A DNA stretch of 21,794 bases from a virus: positions 1 to 21,794 of IMG/VR virus record IMGVR_UViG_3300031951_019746; one strand, given 5' to 3'. The position numbers and the translations under genes were made by a program. Positions 1 to 21,403 of this stretch are shown in pieces (the first letter of the stretch is position 1; every line of letters begins with the position of its first letter). The notes beneath the pieces are model-generated. The model was not told where the DNA came from and searched no databases. It saw only the letters and a program-made list of their open reading frames with translations.

Positions 1-929
1 GATACACCATCAGATGCGGATGGCAATACAGCATTAGCGCTATTGCAATTTACGCACTGTCTTGCTGGTCCAGAGTATACATCAGAGAATACTTTTTTAC
101 AATCTTTACAATGATATGTAAATAGTGCCCTATTTAGCATTCTATTTTCTTTTAGTAATTTTGGTATTTCCCAACACATATAGTCTGGATAACTAGTGTG
201 CAAGTATAGAAATATTTTCTTATTCGTTTTTCCAGAACTTTCATATGAGTCTATAACTTTTCTAACAGATTGTATTAATTCTGGTATCAGTTTTCTTTTT
301 TGATTTCTCATAACTGATCCAATAATAATACTATCATTTGGTATTAGTAAACTAGATCTACAAGCTTGCTGGTTTTTCATGCAAAAAATATCAGTGTCTA
401 CTCCTGGAGAAGTAGTATCTATATATTTGATTTTATTAGAAGTTTGCTGATTTATGATATCTCTTGCCCAATCAGAATATGTAAAAATAGCATCGGCAGT
501 TAAATATGTGGACATCCACAAGTCTTGTTGTGGAGCGGAGTCAATCGTTGGCATCACTGTCCAATTAAAATATTCCCTTAAAGGAGAAAATGCCTGATAC
601 TGATTCATCCAGTAATCTCTTATATCTATAACAACATCAGGTTTAAAATCTATTAAGACTTTTTCAAATCGCCATCGCCCAAAAGAATTATCCGTGGACG
701 ACATATACTGAGAAAACCTTGGGTCGTTTGGAGGTACTGCATTAGCATAATATCTCCAATTTATATTAGTATCTCTACTATCATTAATAGATCCATAGCA
801 AGCTAATTCAGCAATATATAATGAAGGATTATTATTTAATCTTTTAATGAGTTCTCTGTAATAACTGGCATATCCAGTTTTTAGAAAACTTGCTTCTCCA
901 CAGAATAGTACTTTTAATTTTTTAGACAT
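1..929 (-). CDS. GT4-like glycosyltransferase with inserted zinc ribbon (C-terminus cut by window edge)
   Basis: Open frame with an ATG at 927-929 running off the left edge; 309 residues are visible. The N-terminus (KVLFCGEASFLKTGY, about residues 6-20) reads as the first Rossmann strand and loop of a GT-B fold. GVDTDIF (about 176-182) and GSVMRNQKRK (about 204-213) match the linker and start of the second Rossmann domain in GT4-type enzymes. It probably transfers a nucleotide-activated sugar to phage DNA, a virion protein or a cell-surface glycan; the acceptor is unknown. Unusual: Cys274, Cys277, Cys292 and Cys295 form a CxxC-x14-CxxC zinc ribbon inside the second domain. The start lies 7 bases after a strong hairpin and has no Shine-Dalgarno site. 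Fold assignment is fairly sure; substrate is not. Confidence 0.85.
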   Translation of the reverse strand, partial: MSKKLKVLFCGEASFLKTGYASYYRELIKRLNNNPSLYIAELACYGSINDSRDTNINWRYYANAVPPNDPRFSQYMSSTDNSFGRWRFEKVLIDFKPDVVIDIRDYWMNQYQAFSPLREYFNWTVMPTIDSAPQQDLWMSTYLTADAIFTYSDWARDIINQQTSNKIKYIDTTSPGVDTDIFCMKNQQACRSSLLIPNDSIIIGSVMRNQKRKLIPELIQSVRKVIDSYESSGKTNKKIFLYLHTSYPDYMCWEIPKLLKENRMLNRALFTYHCKDCKKVFSDVYSGPARQCVNCNSANAVLPSASDGV

Positions 930-936
930 ATAAAAT

Positions 937-964
937 AGAAGGCTATGGTTTCCCATAGCCCTCT
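937..964 (-). terminator. Hairpin with GAAA tetraloop between ssb and the glycosyltransferase
   Basis: On the minus strand AGAGGGCTATGG, loop GAAA, CCATAGCCTTCT form a 12-pair stem with one G.U pair, followed by ATTTTAT. It lies between the ssb stop and the glycosyltransferase start. The position and following U-rich stretch suit an intrinsic terminator, but the U run is short and interrupted, so it could instead be an RNA stability or translation-control hairpin. Confidence 0.6.
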
Positions 965-996: not shown

Positions 997-1368
997 TCAA
1001 AATGCTACGGCTTCTTCTTCAACAGAATCCTGTCTCTTAGATAGCTTAGTAATTTTTGAAAAATTATTCACTCTAATTTTTAGTGTCGAGTGCTTTACGC
1101 CATCTTTTTCCCACGAATCATTCCTAAGCGATCCTTCTACCATCACAAGATCACCCTTCTTAAAAGAGTCTCCGATGATTTCCGCCCCAGTATCCCATGC
1201 CTCACAAGGAATAAATGAAGTAACTTTGTCCTTACTTCCATTTGCCTTGGTATATTCACGAGATGTTGCAACAGTAAAGTTAACAACTGAAGTCTGCTTG
1301 CCATTACTGCTAACAGTCCTTAGTTCTGGGTCACGAGCTAAATTTCCTCTAACAATTACAATATTCAT
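997..1368 (-). CDS. ssb: Single-stranded DNA-binding protein
   Basis: 123-residue SSB. The OB-fold pattern is clear from the N-terminus: MNIVIVRGNLARDPELR, then VVNFTVATSREY and the KGDLVMVEGSL strand. The protein ends in a short acidic tail, EEEAVAF, like the bacterial SSB tip that docks polymerase, primase and repair partners. It should coat ssDNA during phage replication and recombination. It is shorter than cellular SSBs (about 170-180 residues) because the disordered linker is nearly missing. The ATG has a strong site (AAGGAG, 6 bases away). It is the first gene after a near-consensus promoter at 1415-1442, so it can be transcribed independently of the replication operon upstream. Confidence 0.95.
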   Translation of the reverse strand: MNIVIVRGNLARDPELRTVSSNGKQTSVVNFTVATSREYTKANGSKDKVTSFIPCEAWDTGAEIIGDSFKKGDLVMVEGSLRNDSWEKDGVKHSTLKIRVNNFSKITKLSKRQDSVEEEAVAF

Positions 1369-1414: not shown

Positions 1415-1442
1415 ATTATACGATTGTGTGGCGAGTAGTCAA
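1415..1442 (-). promoter_or_regulatory. Sigma70-type promoter for ssb
   Basis: Minus strand: -35 TTGACT (1442-1437), 16-base spacer, -10 TATAAT (1420-1415), 11 of 12 consensus bases. Expected start is near 1408, giving a leader of about 39 bases that contains the AAGGAG site of ssb. The -35 box contains the TGA stop codon of the upstream polymerase gene. The same arrangement occurs at 19200-19227. Confidence 0.8.
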
Positions 1443-3058
1443 GTCCTTGGAGTATAACATTTTTCTACGATTAGATCTGTTTTCTTTTGGGATTTAGACC
1501 CTTGAAAAATAAGAATGTTTCCTTCAAATAATTGATTTCTATATATAGTTAATTGATCAGTAAAGAAAATAACAGAGTCTATATATCCAGTGCTATCTTT
1601 GATACTGACAAATGCCATATCTAGACCTTTATTTTTTCCATTCTTTATTTTTATAATGTTGACTCCATCTATTTCACCAGCAATAATAATATTTTTCCTT
1701 GTCGTATCTTTAAATTCTTTACAGCTAGTATTAGTCATACTAATATCATATGAATCAACTTTAGAATATGTTATATTGATTCCAAGTAGTGATGTTTCAT
1801 TATCACATATCCATTCAATCTTGTCCTCTGTAGAATATGGAGGTCTAATCAATGAGTTAACTAAATTAGATATAATTTTTCTTCTTGGCTCTGTTAGTCT
1901 GGGTTTTTTAGATAAAATATTCAATAGCTGTGTTAAAGAAAATTCGTTATTATTAATTTGATCTATATATTCTATTTCTTTATTTGTTAACTGAGATATA
2001 ATCTCATATTCAAACAGCATTAAAGTTCTATCTTTCTTAATATAATCTAAAGCTCCAGAACAAATTAAAGATTTTGCAGCTGTGGAATTGATTTTCATTA
2101 ATATCTGAAATAATAGCTTAGTCCAGGATAATTCTTTAGATATTTGTGTCGAATAAAGTTCTACTATTTTCTTATATACAGAATCTCCTACTCCTTTGAT
2201 ATCTGTTAGACCAAAATATATATTCTTATTGATGATAAAATTTTTATTTAATAATCTAATATCTGGAACACAGATCGCTATATCCATATCTGTAGCATTT
2301 TTTACCAATTCTTTTATTTCTTGCTGAGGATCTATTTTATCCTTAGCATATTTTAAGTATGATGCAAAAAATACTTTTGGGAAATGAGCTTTACTATAAG
2401 CCGAAATATATGCATTAATAGCATAACTGACCGCATGAGACTTATTAAACGAATATCTTTGAGATTTTTCTATCCAACTAAATATCTGTTCTGCCTCATT
2501 ACTAGATACTATTTTATGGTTTACACAACCATCGATAAATCTGGTTTTTAGTTTGGCCATTTCTTCTGGCTTTTTCTTTCCAATGGCTTTTCTTAACATA
2601 TCCGCTTCTTGTAGATCAAAACCAGCTATCTTTTGGGCTATTTCCATGGCTTGCTCTTGATAAACCATTTCCCCATATGTGGTTGTTAATATAGGTTCTA
2701 AAGAAGGATGAAAGTAATCAACAGATTCTTGAGCATTCTTTTTGTCTATAAAATGATTGCTAACTGTTTTTCCGTCTCTAACAGCCTCCAGACATCCTGG
2801 CCTCATGATTGAAATCAGAGCGGCTAATTCTTCTATATTTGAAGGCTTTAATTTCTTAGACATAGACTGACCCAATCTCGACTCTAATTGGAAACAACCC
2901 TTGGTATTCCCATCAGATAAAAGATCCCAGGTTTTAGTGCAATCTATAGGAATATCCTCTATATTAGGAGAGAAGGATAAACTTGGCATAGATTCGTTAT
3001 TCTCAGATTTTTTTAATACTGGGAATTTACATCCACAACTAAACTGATAATATTCCAT
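1439..3058 (-). CDS. dnaE: DNA polymerase III alpha subunit, C-terminal half (fingers, beta-binding region, OB fold)
   Basis: 539 residues matching the DnaE region downstream of the palm. Seen: GCFQLES (about 54-60), the RPGCLEAV loop (86-93), TYGEMVYQEQAM (127-138), ADMLRKAIGKKKPEEM (152-167) and YSFNKSHAVSY (202-212), all fingers-domain hallmarks; a helix-hairpin-helix (GLTDIKGVGD, about 285-294); and a C-terminal OB fold (about 455-535). The palm and PHP parts are in a separate gene at 3928-5805, with two genes between. The first 40 residues, with a CGC at 8-10, precede recognisable DnaE sequence. It ends after the OB fold, so the tau-binding domain of cellular DnaE is missing. The start follows the exonuclease stop by a few bases with no clear ribosome site, suggesting translational coupling. 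Not a fragment pseudogene: the motifs are intact. Confidence 0.92.
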   Translation of the reverse strand: MEYYQFSCGCKFPVLKKSENNESMPSLSFSPNIEDIPIDCTKTWDLLSDGNTKGCFQLESRLGQSMSKKLKPSNIEELAALISIMRPGCLEAVRDGKTVSNHFIDKKNAQESVDYFHPSLEPILTTTYGEMVYQEQAMEIAQKIAGFDLQEADMLRKAIGKKKPEEMAKLKTRFIDGCVNHKIVSSNEAEQIFSWIEKSQRYSFNKSHAVSYAINAYISAYSKAHFPKVFFASYLKYAKDKIDPQQEIKELVKNATDMDIAICVPDIRLLNKNFIINKNIYFGLTDIKGVGDSVYKKIVELYSTQISKELSWTKLLFQILMKINSTAAKSLICSGALDYIKKDRTLMLFEYEIISQLTNKEIEYIDQINNNEFSLTQLLNILSKKPRLTEPRRKIISNLVNSLIRPPYSTEDKIEWICDNETSLLGINITYSKVDSYDISMTNTSCKEFKDTTRKNIIIAGEIDGVNIIKIKNGKNKGLDMAFVSIKDSTGYIDSVIFFTDQLTIYRNQLFEGNILIFQGSKSQKKTDLIVEKCYTPRT

Positions 3059-3063
3059 TTGAT

Positions 3064-3753
3064 TTATTTGAAAGAACCTTGAAACTTAATTTTCCCAAAC
3101 ATATTCCTATGCAATCTTAAAAAGCGAATTAAGATTTCTGCACAATCTTTTACATCCTTTAAAGCATCGTGGGCACCATCTTTTGATATTCCTAGATATT
3201 CTCTTAGATTATCTAACGAGTAGCTTTTAAGATCATTTGATCCCTCGAACCAATAAAAAATAAGGTTCATTATATCTATAACATCTCTTGGATAGAATAA
3301 TGAAGAAACTCCTTCTTTATTAACGTTTTTATATTTTTTGCTTAACCTATCTACTATCTTCATATCAAATCTATTGATATTGTAGCCAGCAGCTATAGGA
3401 GCAGTAAAACATGATTTCCTATCAGATCTTAAATGATACATTTCTAGATAAGAAACAAACATTTTCCAGCTAGTATCCTGATCAGGATATTCATGCCAGG
3501 ATTTCAGAATATCTTCTTTAGTCGAACCCCTAACCTTAGCATGAAAATCCAAAATATCACTATCCTCATAGGCATAGTTTTTGTCTTTTTCTAATGCTAG
3601 AGGTTTAATACTGATATTGAATTCAGAATCAGATACAATTTCTAATTTTACTGGATCTATAATTACTGCTGCTAATTGCACTGGACTACATACATTTGGA
3701 TCCTTACCGTCTGTTTCAAAATCGAAAACACAAATTTTTTGATTGTTAGCCAT
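3064..3753 (-). CDS. DnaQ-like 3'-5' exonuclease (proofreading subunit candidate)
   Basis: 229 residues with the DEDDh exonuclease set: VFDFETDG gives Asp11 and Glu13, YNINRFD gives Asp130, and HDALKDVKD gives His195 and Asp200. This is the fold of Pol III epsilon and of phage proofreading exonucleases. It removes mispaired 3' nucleotides and, from its position between the two dnaE halves, probably works with that polymerase. The ATG overlaps the stop of the 61-residue gene by 8 bases, with AAAGG just upstream. No clamp-binding motif was identified with confidence. RNase T/Orn-type activity cannot be excluded from sequence alone. Confidence 0.88.
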   Translation of the reverse strand: MANNQKICVFDFETDGKDPNVCSPVQLAAVIIDPVKLEIVSDSEFNISIKPLALEKDKNYAYEDSDILDFHAKVRGSTKEDILKSWHEYPDQDTSWKMFVSYLEMYHLRSDRKSCFTAPIAAGYNINRFDMKIVDRLSKKYKNVNKEGVSSLFYPRDVIDIMNLIFYWFEGSNDLKSYSLDNLREYLGISKDGAHDALKDVKDCAEILIRFLRLHRNMFGKIKFQGSFK

Positions 3754-3931
3754 TTACCTTTACTACTGTTCCTGGTGCGAGATATGTTTTATTATTTGAG
3801 TTAGCATCTTCTTCTGCATTATATACTTTGCAGCAACTAACTCTTACGTCTGCGATCCTACGATATACTAGGGGAGAGCCCGAGATTGTGAACTTTTCAT
3901 CAACTGCTACCTCTGAAAATAACTTATTCAT
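3746..3931 (-). CDS. Small conserved-looking protein between the DnaE halves
   Basis: 61 residues, function not recognised. The opening LFSEVAVDEKFTISG followed by VYRRIADV resembles the small phage proteins of the type 'F-x-x-L-x-x-G-x-x-F ... Y-x-K-I', which look like single beta-barrel domains; this is a loose resemblance. It has adjacent cysteines (CC, about 33-34). The ATG has a strong GGAGG site, and its ATGA overlaps the stop of the N-terminal polymerase gene; its own stop overlaps the exonuclease start. Wedged in the polymerase operon, it could be a polymerase accessory factor, but that is only inferred from position. Confidence 0.72.
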   Translation of the reverse strand: MNKLFSEVAVDEKFTISGSPLVYRRIADVRVSCCKVYNAEEDANSNNKTYLAPGTVVKVNG

Positions 3932-5805
3932 ATAGTACCTCCATTTTGTAATAAGTCACTAACTGTCATTACCTTATCTAACATTGCTACACCGAGTATA
4001 TCAAATTTTATAATACCTAAAGACTCTAAGTCTTGCATTTCCATGCCAGCAATTTGTTGTTTATTTTTGCTGTCATATACCATAGGACATATGTCTCCAA
4101 GTTTATTATTTGATATAACAATTCCGGCCGCATGTTTCGATTGATTAACTTTAGTCCCCTCTAATCTTATGGCTTGTTCAAACCTCTTAGCTAGAGGACC
4201 AACTAAAGTTCCATTCTCTATATAACACCAATTTTTCAATTTGTCAACATTATTTTCTAATGCCCACTGTATAATAGATGCTTCTCCGAATTCTTCTTTC
4301 ATTTCTTGTAATTCGTCAGCAATCTTAGCTTCATCAGGTATAAATTGTGTTATATTATTCATTTCATCAAACGAAACATCTCCGTATACTCTTAGCACAT
4401 CTTTAAGAGCACCCCTACCCTTTAGAGTATTAAATGTTATCATTTGAGAAACATTTTCATCTCCATATCTATCTTTGATATAGTTAATAACATTCTCTCT
4501 CTTATTGATTGGCACATCGACATCAATATCTGGCATGGAAATTCTATCTTGAGTATTTCTTCCGGAATTATAAAATCTTTCAAAGATTAGATTATATTTT
4601 ATTGGATCAATAGAGGTTATTCCGATTAAATATGATACTAAACATCCAGCAGCAGAACCTCTTCCTGGTCCAGGTAGCCAGTTATTATCTCTCACATATT
4701 TCACTATATCTGAGACAATCAAAAAATAACTAGAAAGACCAGCACCTTGCAATATAGATAACTCATATTTTATTCTATCAACATAAACTTGCTCAATATC
4801 TTTTGAGATATTGTTTGCTATTTTTTCTTTCCATCCTTGTCTACACAAATGTCTGAGATATTCATCTGGGTTTTCTCCGTTTTCGCATTCAAAAGGAGGA
4901 AGCATCGGCTTATGGGTAATATCATAGTCTTCACACATACTATCTACTAGATTAGTATTATCTATCTCTTGATCAGTATGAATTTCTCTTATTTCTTCCG
5001 GAGATAATATATGATAATTATCCGATAGAAAAAATGTTGACATAGGAACTTGTTGTCCTGATACTATCTTTTTATTTATTTCTGAAAATGTAGTTTTAAG
5101 ATTATTACACAATAATATTCTTTGATCTATTGAGTCGTCTTTTTCTGCATAGTGAGCATCCGGAGTACAGATTGTTTTAACTTTGGTTAAATTGGCTAAT
5201 TCGTTTATACAATCAGACAATATCTTTTGAGCAGGATTATTCTCTTTATCCATTAGCTGGATTTCTAAAAAGAAATTATCTTTACCAAAAACATTTTTGA
5301 GTTGTTCTATTTTTGCTGTGCCTATATTTTTCCAATCCGGGATAATTTGATTATTGACAAAAATATGGTTTGCCAAATACGAACCTAAATGGCCGCAAAA
5401 TCCTATTAAGTTATTGTCTACTAACTCAGATAACGAAGACATATTAAGTCTTGGCTTATGATAAAAATGATCAGACCTATTGGACTCTGATATGATTTTT
5501 ATTAACTTTTTCCAACCTTGTAAATTCTTAGCAAGAACCAGAAAATGATGTAATTCTGAATTTTCTTTTGTTTTGATTGTTGGACTATCGTCACAAATAT
5601 AAAGCTCACAACCTAATATTGGCTTAATGCCAGACTTTTTCATCACTGAATGAAACTGTACGGCACCAGATATGTTTCCGTGATCAGTTAAGGCGCAAGA
5701 AGATACTCCGATTTTTGAACATCTATCCGCTATTTGTTTTGGCTTACTTAATCCGTCAAGTAAACTATAATGAGAATGTACATGCAGTGGTATATATTTC
5801 TTCAT
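3928..5805 (-). CDS. dnaE: DNA polymerase III alpha subunit, N-terminal half (PHP, palm, thumb)
   Basis: 625 residues covering the first half of a bacterial-type replicative polymerase. The PHP domain (about 1-260) has HVHSHYSLLDG (His8, His10, Asp17), DHGN (Asp41, His42), GCE (Glu67), CGH (137-139) and PDAHY (Asp216, His218); the metal-binding set looks complete, unlike the degenerate E. coli PHP. The palm has GPGRGSAAG (379-387), PDIDVD with catalytic Asp426 and Asp428, HAAG (558-561), and KFDILG with the third catalytic Asp602. It stops about 23 residues later, just where the fingers domain would begin; the rest is encoded at 1439-3058. There is no intein-like sequence at its end. ATGA overlap with the upstream nuclease gene and AGGAAG site support the start. 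Confidence 0.94.
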   Translation of the reverse strand: MKKYIPLHVHSHYSLLDGLSKPKQIADRCSKIGVSSCALTDHGNISGAVQFHSVMKKSGIKPILGCELYICDDSPTIKTKENSELHHFLVLAKNLQGWKKLIKIISESNRSDHFYHKPRLNMSSLSELVDNNLIGFCGHLGSYLANHIFVNNQIIPDWKNIGTAKIEQLKNVFGKDNFFLEIQLMDKENNPAQKILSDCINELANLTKVKTICTPDAHYAEKDDSIDQRILLCNNLKTTFSEINKKIVSGQQVPMSTFFLSDNYHILSPEEIREIHTDQEIDNTNLVDSMCEDYDITHKPMLPPFECENGENPDEYLRHLCRQGWKEKIANNISKDIEQVYVDRIKYELSILQGAGLSSYFLIVSDIVKYVRDNNWLPGPGRGSAAGCLVSYLIGITSIDPIKYNLIFERFYNSGRNTQDRISMPDIDVDVPINKRENVINYIKDRYGDENVSQMITFNTLKGRGALKDVLRVYGDVSFDEMNNITQFIPDEAKIADELQEMKEEFGEASIIQWALENNVDKLKNWCYIENGTLVGPLAKRFEQAIRLEGTKVNQSKHAAGIVISNNKLGDICPMVYDSKNKQQIAGMEMQDLESLGIIKFDILGVAMLDKVMTVSDLLQNGGTI

Positions 5806-13406: not shown

Positions 13407-13801
13407 TAGGATAGTTCCCTTTCTGCGTTATTGAACCAAGACAGATTTTTGGTTCTTAAAAAATTGATATAATGATCAAATACCTTTGGACTTACTTCTT
13501 TAAATTCCCACTCTGATTTTCTAACTCTTGTCATAAACTTGGGCTGTTTAGCATCAGGATCGTATATGGAAATAGGATTATATATTTTACCATATGCCCC
13601 TATTTTTATTAAGTACTTATATGAAGAATTATCAGATCTGGCCAATGCCTTTGCTACAGTTTTATCATTGTCTTTTTTTAATCTTGGATTTAGCTCTTGA
13701 TCTAGATAGTCTTCCTGACCAGACATAGTATAGAACTTATTTTCTGTATTTGTTTTCGTTAGTTCTTTCTTTATAATAAATTCATCAAAATTTACGTCCA
13801 T
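13406..13801 (-). CDS. Unknown protein
   Basis: 131 residues, not recognised. Mixed charged sequence; the central part (YKYLIKIGAYGKIYNPISIY, about 61-80) looks beta-rich, and the C-terminus (VFDHYINFLRTKNLSWFNNAERE) looks helical. Good GAGG site before the ATG, which lies 10 bases inside the FmdB-like gene. The gene sits in a run of small proteins with zinc ribbons and a helix-turn-helix. No function assigned. Confidence 0.77.
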   Translation of the reverse strand: MDVNFDEFIIKKELTKTNTENKFYTMSGQEDYLDQELNPRLKKDNDKTVAKALARSDNSSYKYLIKIGAYGKIYNPISIYDPDAKQPKFMTRVRKSEWEFKEVSPKVFDHYINFLRTKNLSWFNNAERELS

Positions 13802-14136
13802 TTTATCCTCTTTGTTGGTTTCTTCATTCTGCTCATTCCTTTTGGAAGAGGATTCTCTTCTTTATCTCTATAAGCATTATGCTTTTCATGTAAATGCTGT
13901 TTGTGGTCATCGCTCATTTTTTCTGCATTTCTATTAGCTAGATCACCAATAGTTTTTAGTTCATTGTCTGATAATTTTATTGAAGTATTTAACCCTAATA
14001 AATCGTCTCTATATGATCTTTCTGTATTTTTAGACTTACAAAATTGACATTCTGCTTTTTCTTCATATTTTGCTATACTACAAACCAACGAGAATTTCTC
14101 ATTACAACTATTACAAAGATATGTATACTCTGGCAT
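13792..14136 (-). CDS. FmdB-type zinc ribbon protein
   Basis: 114 residues. The first 45 match the FmdB/CxxC-CxxC regulatory protein family: MPEYTYLCNSCNEKFSL, then ECQFCKSKNTERSY, giving four zinc-binding cysteines. The remainder is charged and helical (SDNELKTIGDLANRNAEKMSDDHK) with a basic end. Family members are proposed regulators, although biochemical evidence is thin. It follows the HNH nuclease gene by one base with no clear ribosome site, which suggests coupled translation. Confidence 0.85.
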   Translation of the reverse strand: MPEYTYLCNSCNEKFSLVCSIAKYEEKAECQFCKSKNTERSYRDDLLGLNTSIKLSDNELKTIGDLANRNAEKMSDDHKQHLHEKHNAYRDKEENPLPKGMSRMKKPTKRIKWT

Positions 14137-20476: not shown

Positions 20477-21403
20477 TTATAGATAGTCTTCGAAACCGTA
20501 AGATGGTAGCTTTTGTACAGGGAACCCGTCAAAATTACTAAATGCATAACTTCCATTTTGTGAAAGCATCCCTGCTGCTACGTCGGCTCGTATTAAAAAA
20601 CTTCCATCCGGAATAGGCCCCCATTCTGGATGACCTCCATCATTCCATTTCCCCCAACTATTTTGTACCAAAAATAATGGTTCGCTGCCAGTATCATCAC
20701 ATGCTATCCAAGCCATACAATGGGCCCAGCTACCACTAGTATTAGATATGCCCTTTTTATCTCTTTTATTACTAAATCCATAGCTAGAACATACAGCTAA
20801 ACCATAGCCATTAGCTAGGGCGTCTCTTGCTTCTTCTACGGTTCGTATTAAACTAGTTGTTCTAATCTGGTGATCATTTGCTACGTCAATAACTTTATCT
20901 GGTAATCCTCTGGCCCCCCATCCTGCGCCAAGACTACCATTATATTTAGTAAAATCAGCAACTCCTTTATAATTTTGTCTTAATAGTATTCCACCATTTT
21001 TACTAACAAATTCAGCTGCTCTTGAGCAACTCATTCCTTCTCCGCCATGGCCACGAGCGCCATAAATGGCTTCTGTCGCTCCTTTGGCGACCCAGGCTTC
21101 TTTTTCCCCATTTACATCTATCTCTACTGCTCTACTAACATCACATGCGTTTCTCGTTCCGTGAGATACACAATCTCCTGTTGTTTGTCTTTCGTTATAG
21201 GGACTTTTCTCAAATTTTAAAACACTTTTATATGGTGTTGATAATTTACCCTTGCCACTACTTTTTATTTTTTTGCTAGCATCACCGAATAATGGATATT
21301 TACTATGTTCCATCAAATGATCAAAAACATGCTGCTCCCACAAACAACCACTAAAGCCATTACGATAATTATCATATAATTCTTGTGGTGAATATCTTGC
21401 CAT
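20477..21403 (-). CDS. Papain-like (C1 family) cysteine peptidase
   Basis: 308 residues. The triad region is clear: ERQTTGDCVSHGTRNA (oxyanion-hole Gln and nucleophile Cys, about 91-106), GSWAHCMAWIA (catalytic His), and LVQNSWGKWNDGG (catalytic Asn), in the order of papain. There is no signal peptide or obvious propeptide; about 65 residues precede the core. It may cut a virion or host protein, or act in lysis or maturation; the sequence does not decide. The start shares TAATG with the upstream gene and has AAGGAAG. It heads a run of small membrane and exported proteins. Confidence 0.9.
   Translation of the reverse strand: MARYSPQELYDNYRNGFSGCLWEQHVFDHLMEHSKYPLFGDASKKIKSSGKGKLSTPYKSVLKFEKSPYNERQTTGDCVSHGTRNACDVSRAVEIDVNGEKEAWVAKGATEAIYGARGHGGEGMSCSRAAEFVSKNGGILLRQNYKGVADFTKYNGSLGAGWGARGLPDKVIDVANDHQIRTTSLIRTVEEARDALANGYGLAVCSSYGFSNKRDKKGISNTSGSWAHCMAWIACDDTGSEPLFLVQNSWGKWNDGGHPEWGPIPDGSFLIRADVAAGMLSQNGSYAFSNFDGFPVQKLPSYGFEDYL

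Follow-up and report, generated by a model that had tools for sequence, protein, structure and literature searches.

The window analysed here is an entire virus record of 21,794 bases, and the features discussed below are collected in Table 1. At one end, a minus-strand reading frame is open from an ATG at position 929 to the end of the contig and encodes 309 amino acids, reading ...YHCKDCKKVFSDVYSGPARQCVNC.... The same frame is also open at position 956, but because that position sits within the hairpin upstream of the gene, 929 is the likelier start. The encoded protein contains four cysteines arranged as CKDC-x14-CVNC, with the minus-strand codons of Cys274, Cys277, Cys292 and Cys295 at positions 108-110, 99-101, 54-56 and 45-47, respectively. 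The original prediction had read a CxxC-x14-CxxC motif between Cys274 and Cys295, and this reading is confirmed from the letters and by the retention of the motif among the relatives described below. A chance origin of the four-cysteine motif was ruled out. The exact spacing arose in 17 of 200,000 shuffles of the window protein, any CxxC-x8..30-CxxC arrangement arose in 99 of 50,000, and the exact motif was found in none of 1080 other ORFs from the loci of the relatives. Conservation is stronger evidence for the motif than these shuffle statistics.

Table 1. Position, strand and basis of assignment of the features at the glycosyltransferase locus.
Feature	Position	Strand	Basis
Start of predicted nucleobase loop, Gly308-Val309 (L005 Gly309-Val310)	3..8	-	28-residue offset, no gap assumed, and alignment
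GT4-type glycosyltransferase gene, 5' 309 codons	3..929	-	C-terminal part beyond contig end; relatives L002-L084
Zinc ribbon insert, CxxC-x14-CxxC, Cys274-Cys295	45..110	-	Sequence, relatives, predicted ribbon fold (pLDDT 87.9)
RNQKRK motif with Arg208 and Lys213, expected donor-pyrophosphate contacts	291..308	-	Analogy with PglH R191/K196
Terminator-like hairpin between SSB and glycosyltransferase genes	937..964	-	Folding of the intergenic stretch
Single-strand DNA-binding protein (SSB), syntenic neighbour	997..1368	-	Pfam SSB, E=4.7e-26
DNA polymerase III alpha, C-terminal piece, syntenic neighbour	1439..3058	-	tblastn to annotated dnaE genes
Exonuclease-like gene, conserved replication block	3064..3753	-	Named by eye; relatives in 84 loci
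DNA polymerase III alpha, N-terminal piece	3928..5805	-	By eye, PHP-type N-terminus; relatives in 84 loci

An hmmscan search of the 309-residue protein gave no match to a glycosyltransferase profile, because the best-conserved part of the family lies past the contig end. It gave a weak match to Zn_ribbon_8 (E=0.0037, residues 269-299) and two weaker, unrelated matches. Zn_ribbon_8 (PF09723, FmdB-type) is the best Pfam match of the insert; at 17.7 bits, below the gathering cut-off of 34.4, the window protein falls outside this family, and the profile is matched by 3 of 37 aligned members at E≤0.01. A stand-alone FmdB-type gene is also present in the window at 13792-14136 (Zn_ribbon_8 E=2.8e-7, 30.9 bits against the cut-off of 34.4), and ribbons of this type within phage proteins may derive from such a gene. 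A candidate papain-like cysteine protease gene lies at 20477-21403 (Peptidase_C1 E=0.0097, below cut-off).

Distribution and conservation of the four-cysteine insert

Complete relatives of the window protein are about 550 residues long. The first search, carried out with six patterns of which one was a ribbon peptide, yielded two loci (L002 and L003) at 42% identity, and the relatives from viral contigs are the best 80 of 140, with identities of 40-63%. With the window excluded, CxxC-x14-CxxC is found at a fixed position in 84 of the 89 loci that span the region, corresponding to 67 of 69 distinct proteins (85 of 90 loci and 68 of 70 proteins with the window included). Left out of the count of 89 are two loci that end before the insert (L076 and L097) and a distant viral GT4 relative without the ribbon (L098, 26% identity). 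The figure of 67 of 69 is unbiased by the ribbon pattern save for the origin of L002 and L003. The larger set of 134 distinct proteins includes loci picked by that pattern, and its count of 132 with a ribbon is biased accordingly.

A scan of viral metagenomes for the exact ribbon spacing together with EGFG returned at least 120 stretches. Of the 120 listed, 119 encode the ribbon-GT4 family (79 of the first 80 and all of the other 40); the remaining one (L153) is a chance match outside the family, and 16 of the 79 members duplicate earlier proteins at 100% identity. When 84,980 species genomes were scanned with two peptide patterns, three loci (L088-L090) were found, all on contigs of metagenome-assembled genomes (MAGs). 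Their gene order is the same as or similar to that of the viral loci and they are probably viral contigs within bins; no relatives of L090 were found in viral contigs. The DNA polymerase piece on the latter contig (L090:2576-4867) seems, by eye, to bear a mini-intein of its own.

Cultured phages were also considered as a source of ribbon-bearing relatives and rejected, as all that tblastn turned up in 50,697 phage records were remote GT4 genes at 20-29% identity to the ribbon family. The six proteins inspected, from phages S-CBS4, S-EIVl, TJE1, RM378, phiPsal1 and Mae-JY09, comprise 380-484 residues compared with about 550 in the ribbon family, and no CxxC is present in any of them. The original prediction held that ordinary GT4 enzymes have no such insert, and this is true of the phage GT4 proteins examined, namely those of the six cultured phages and L098.

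The exceptions within the family are L079-L083, which represent two distinct proteins. In these, three of the four cysteines are replaced and the length of the insert is about unchanged. A tree of 127 sequences was built with the insert columns excluded and with the intein-bearing L013 omitted, as it was from the residue-conservation alignment. The exceptions are nested among ribbon-bearing members with a support of 0.989, in a clade of five leaves of which the remaining three have the ribbon. Judged from this sequence tree, the absence of the cysteines in the L079-L083 clade is a secondary loss. Homologues without the cysteines had been named in advance as what would count against the motif, and the only close homologues of this kind are those of the one nested clade.

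In L013 (5989-8850) an intein splits the glycosyltransferase; it matches LAGLIDADG_3 (E=7.9e-11) and, below cut-off, Intein_splicing (E=8e-4). It lies at the catalytic motif, with QYSI before the junction, C... after it and CEGFG where the enzyme resumes, a site which suggests that the catalytic motif is important to the phage.

Searches with the DNA polymerase and the terminase place the lineage far from cultured phages. Among 19 long records drawn from 82 viral loci, all 19 match in a terminase scan and only seven do so with a full-size ORF (675-683 residues) and E below 1e-20; it is because of these seven that we speak of tailed phages. The ribbon enzyme is a GT4 variant of a broad uncultured tailed-phage lineage.

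Predicted fold and position of the insert

Glycos_transf_1 (Pfam, E≤0.01) and phrog_2170 (glycosyltransferase) are each matched by 36 of 37 aligned members, the exception in both cases being the window protein, which is cut by the contig end. The fold was predicted for L005, a full-length relative that is 63% identical to the window protein and scores 39.1 bits with Glycos_transf_1 (cut-off 26.4). The model has a pLDDT of 91.4 and a pTM of 0.89. Its nearest solved structure is BshA (3mbo; Z 31.2, rmsd 3.5 Å, 361 aligned), and it is also close to a structure from Chlorella virus PBCV-NY2A (3oy2; Z 30.8, 2.9 Å, 372 aligned) and to MshA (3c4q; Z 28.9, 3.1 Å, 363 aligned). From these comparisons, the window gene product would be a retaining GT4 glycosyltransferase with a predicted GT-B fold. 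The CAZy GT4 enzymes of the BshA/MshA/PglH type (3mbo, 2jjm, 3c4q) likewise have the GT-B fold, with Z of 28.9-31.2 for the BshA and MshA rows. The ribbon family differs from them by the extra four-cysteine insert of about 28 residues ahead of the base loop and by a C-terminal extension of about 120 residues that is predicted to be mostly helical, and identity to the BshA and MshA rows is only 13-16%.

In the L005 model the ribbon is predicted to comprise strands at residues 270-276, 282-286, 291-293 and 300-302, with Cys276/279 and Cys294/297 at two knuckles (block pLDDT 95/93/95). Both the sequence and the predicted secondary structure therefore contain the elements by which a zinc ribbon is recognized, two CxxC knuckles and short beta strands. 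The ribbon of the window protein was also folded alone (51 residues; pLDDT in Table 1). Its matches to solved folds are weak, with Z no higher than 3.8 and Foldseek E no lower than 0.17, and include Pirh2 (2k2d, Z 3.7), the small subunit of RNA polymerase II (5xog chain L, Z 3.5), MCM N-terminal domains (Z about 3; 4ywl, Z 3.3) and RbpA (2m6o, Z 3.1), all of them zinc-ribbon proteins. The zinc-bound adenylate kinase 5g3y appears at rank 44 (Z 2.6, rmsd 5.6). A profile of the ribbon searched against the PDB says little: C2H2 fingers came out on top (E 0.0013) although none of their single stretches passed, and zinc adenylate kinase followed at E 0.72. The topology of the model and the structural matches suggest that the four cysteines cluster together and that the insert binds metal. 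Structure prediction gives a confident zinc-ribbon-like fold, with topology as the ground for the clustering of the cysteines. The predicted fold of L005 and the sequence also agree with the original placement of the insert within the nucleotide-sugar-binding half of a phage GT-B enzyme.

Alignment with ribbonless phage GT4 proteins locates about 28 extra residues between a strand ending in F-T-Y and the loop preceding the helix ...IYNxFD; this length is read from three of the four outgroup rows (L004, L085 and L086), that of RM378 (L087) being aligned ambiguously. The donor-binding residues R-x4-K and EX7E of PglH are common to the ribbon family. In L005 numbering, R209/K214 occur without exception in 131 aligned proteins, as do E332/E340 of EX7E in 132. 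The window protein itself shows R-x4-K only, as its gene ends earlier, and EX7E is known from the relatives. In PglH, R191 and K196 hold the pyrophosphate, EX7E is E267/E275, the main chain of Val247 holds the uracil, and Glu275, the second glutamate of EX7E, holds the ribose (PMC5792488). DGD2 contacts the uracil through Arg293 and the ribose through Glu321 (PMC12022483). The offset from the uracil contact to the ribose glutamate is 28 residues in both enzymes. Because the second glutamate of L005 is E340, an offset of 28 puts its expected base contact near residue 312, assuming no gap, which is a short way past both G309 (80% conserved) and the ribbon. By analogy with these two enzymes, the insert probably lies beside the donor base, a placement absent from the original prediction.

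The replication block and the glycan-type cluster

Upstream, the glycosyltransferase gene adjoins a conserved block of replication genes. The C-terminal piece of DnaE is found upstream in 85 of 85 loci, and the SSB gene just upstream in at least 64 of 85, a lower bound since greedy ORF calling takes some antisense ORFs. In the window (1439-5805), DNA polymerase III alpha is apparently split in two with the exonuclease-like gene between the pieces, an order common to many relatives; a long form of 1139 residues is encoded in L159.

A terminator-like hairpin precedes the glycosyltransferase gene in 58 of 121 sequences, the window included, compared with a mean of 1.5 in shuffles that preserve base composition only. 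The count of 58 is probably low, as L005 was missed even though the stretch ahead of its gene folds at -24.2 kcal/mol. Stem sequences vary between members, and a hairpin of this type stands at the end of the glycosyltransferase gene in 1 of 108. By this count, the glycan cluster looks like a separate transcription unit in roughly half of the members, if not more.

Downstream of the ribbon gene are a second glycosyltransferase-like gene (74 of 77 loci), a short methyltransferase-like gene (68 of 70), a nucleotidyltransferase-like gene (69 of 70) and a gene for a four-cysteine protein (49 of 70), and 59 loci contain a third glycosyltransferase-like gene that was labelled by eye with no profile support. 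All of these labels denote similarity to gene clusters derived from the same loci. That of the second glycosyltransferase rests on Glycos_transf_1 matches in L002 and L090, with none in L089, and that of the methyltransferase comes from weak matches (DUF3419 E 0.0074, ArsM E 0.02). The best PDB match of the nucleotidyltransferase-like profile is CTP:phosphocholine cytidylyltransferase (E=5.8e-7). The profiles of the second and third glycosyltransferase-like genes had no match in the PDB, and neither gene gave a convincing alignment with the first. In one cluster protein (L012:9923-10672 and relatives), four cysteines (6, 9, 22 and 50) are invariant in 22 aligned members, and for the L012 protein no match was found in Pfam, NCBIfam or PHROG. 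Its invariant cysteines make it a possible second metal protein of the glycan cluster. The ribbon glycosyltransferase gene heads a glycan-type cluster.

Role of the ribbon at the donor or the acceptor side

Across 133 aligned proteins the insert cysteines are 98-100% conserved, figures that are biased by loci chosen for their ribbon. The other insert positions from 277 to 303 reach at most 65%, and nearly all at most 50%, and these values are unaffected by that bias. The ribbon is basic, with a charge of +1 or more in 61 of 62 distinct ribbons (mean +2.6), and its 22-residue stretch ranks only 38th of 511 by charge.

We propose that the ribbon is a structural zinc lid at the donor side of a GT4 enzyme in a phage glycan pathway, a proposal that we regard as evenly poised between right and wrong. 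The four-cysteine ribbon of about 28 residues would interrupt the C-terminal Rossmann domain after its third strand and ahead of the loop expected to grip the nucleobase of the NDP-sugar. The metal would fold this long loop, and the lid would keep the base-recognition element (from Gly308-Val309 onward in the window protein) positioned over the donor pocket. The enzyme would work in a phage-encoded glycan pathway together with the genes downstream. A structural lid fits because constraint falls on the metal ligands alone and because the clade without the ligands keeps the loop. The LID of zinc adenylate kinases (1zin, 5g3y), a four-cysteine zinc loop above the nucleotide-binding site, offers an analogy only, as these enzymes are unrelated to the ribbon GT4 proteins and the likeness in sequence and fold is weak (scores above). 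In Gram-positive adenylate kinases, zinc in the LID holds the loop above the nucleotide site, and relatives without the cysteines retain the LID loop.

The original prediction suggested that the ribbon could recognise a nucleic-acid or protein acceptor, and this is the part of it that is not supported. The insert is unconserved beyond its cysteines and abuts the expected donor-base loop, one clade has lost three of the four cysteines, no hydroxymethylase is seen in 18 of the 19 long records, and a hairpin separates the glycosyltransferase from the replication genes in 58 of the 121 members. A donor-side lid is likelier than acceptor recognition.

Among the acceptor-side readings, the one that survives best, unlikely as we consider it, is that the ribbon docks an acceptor or partner (a protein of the virion, a lipid-linked glycan or a further cluster enzyme) to which the sugar is added. 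The fixed place of the insert in nearly every member found is in keeping with such a role, as is a cluster that contains a second glycosyltransferase (Glycos_transf_1 in L002 and L090) and further conserved genes. Virion glycosylation is moreover reasonable given that the ribbonless GT4 genes of three of the six cultured phages adjoin portal or major capsid genes. However, the ribbonless genes of RM378 and S-EIVl adjoin replication genes too, the neighbours of the ribbon family are replication and glycan-type genes, and within the ribbon only the cysteines are conserved, with these ligands lost in one clade. More doubtful again is an extended form in which the ribbon is the dedicated recognition module of an undescribed phage glycan-assembly line that decorates the virion or phage nucleic acid with a new glycan. 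Here the ribbon would give acceptor specificity, and the gene block would be common to a large uncultured tailed-phage lineage.

We think it improbable that the cluster serves superinfection exclusion by altering glycans of the host surface (LPS or capsule), with the ribbon incidental. The match to CTP:phosphocholine cytidylyltransferase would suit surface decoration, and a study of jumbo cyanophages proposes such a role for similar clusters; however, that study calls its clusters sporadic and polymorphic, whereas gene order is strongly conserved here (PMC7824862).

Least probable of all, and in our view quite unlikely, is the DNA reading of the original prediction, in which the ribbon would bind DNA and modified bases of the phage genome would receive the sugar. 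The gene adjoins SSB and DNA polymerase genes, the ribbon is basic and many zinc ribbons bind nucleic acid; indeed, a phosphate-bearing ligand, nucleic acid included, would also explain a basic ribbon. However, since the hairpin sets off the glycosyltransferase cluster in roughly half of the members or more, its position beside replication genes says little for a DNA target, and the argument that a gene adjoining SSB acts on DNA was rejected on this evidence. The cluster also resembles a multi-step glycan pathway. Known hydroxymethyl-pyrimidine sugars need a thymidylate-synthase-type gene, and a thymidylate-synthase/hydroxymethylase homologue was found in one of the 19 long related records, all of which may be fragments (the control search was positive in 9 of 14 genomes). 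This sole gene is on the record of L073 (G013:58880-59809, E=1.7e-87). A search for Tet_JBP (PF12851) found it in none of the 19 records and was equally silent in the control. Glycosylation of hydroxymethyl-pyrimidine DNA is tentatively disfavoured by this gene content.

GT4 is a very large family, and no description of a zinc ribbon or zinc-binding insert in such enzymes was found in the literature searched, in which subscription journals were thinly covered; an insert stabilised by metal at the mouth of the donor pocket would be new to that literature. Viral metagenomes contain the ribbon variant in abundance, and the six relatives inspected from the 50,697 phage records lack it. It marks a conserved glycan-type cluster beside the replication block in a lineage that has no close relatives in culture, and the four cysteines, together with a natural clade lacking the ligands, provide a handle on whether zinc tunes donor specificity.
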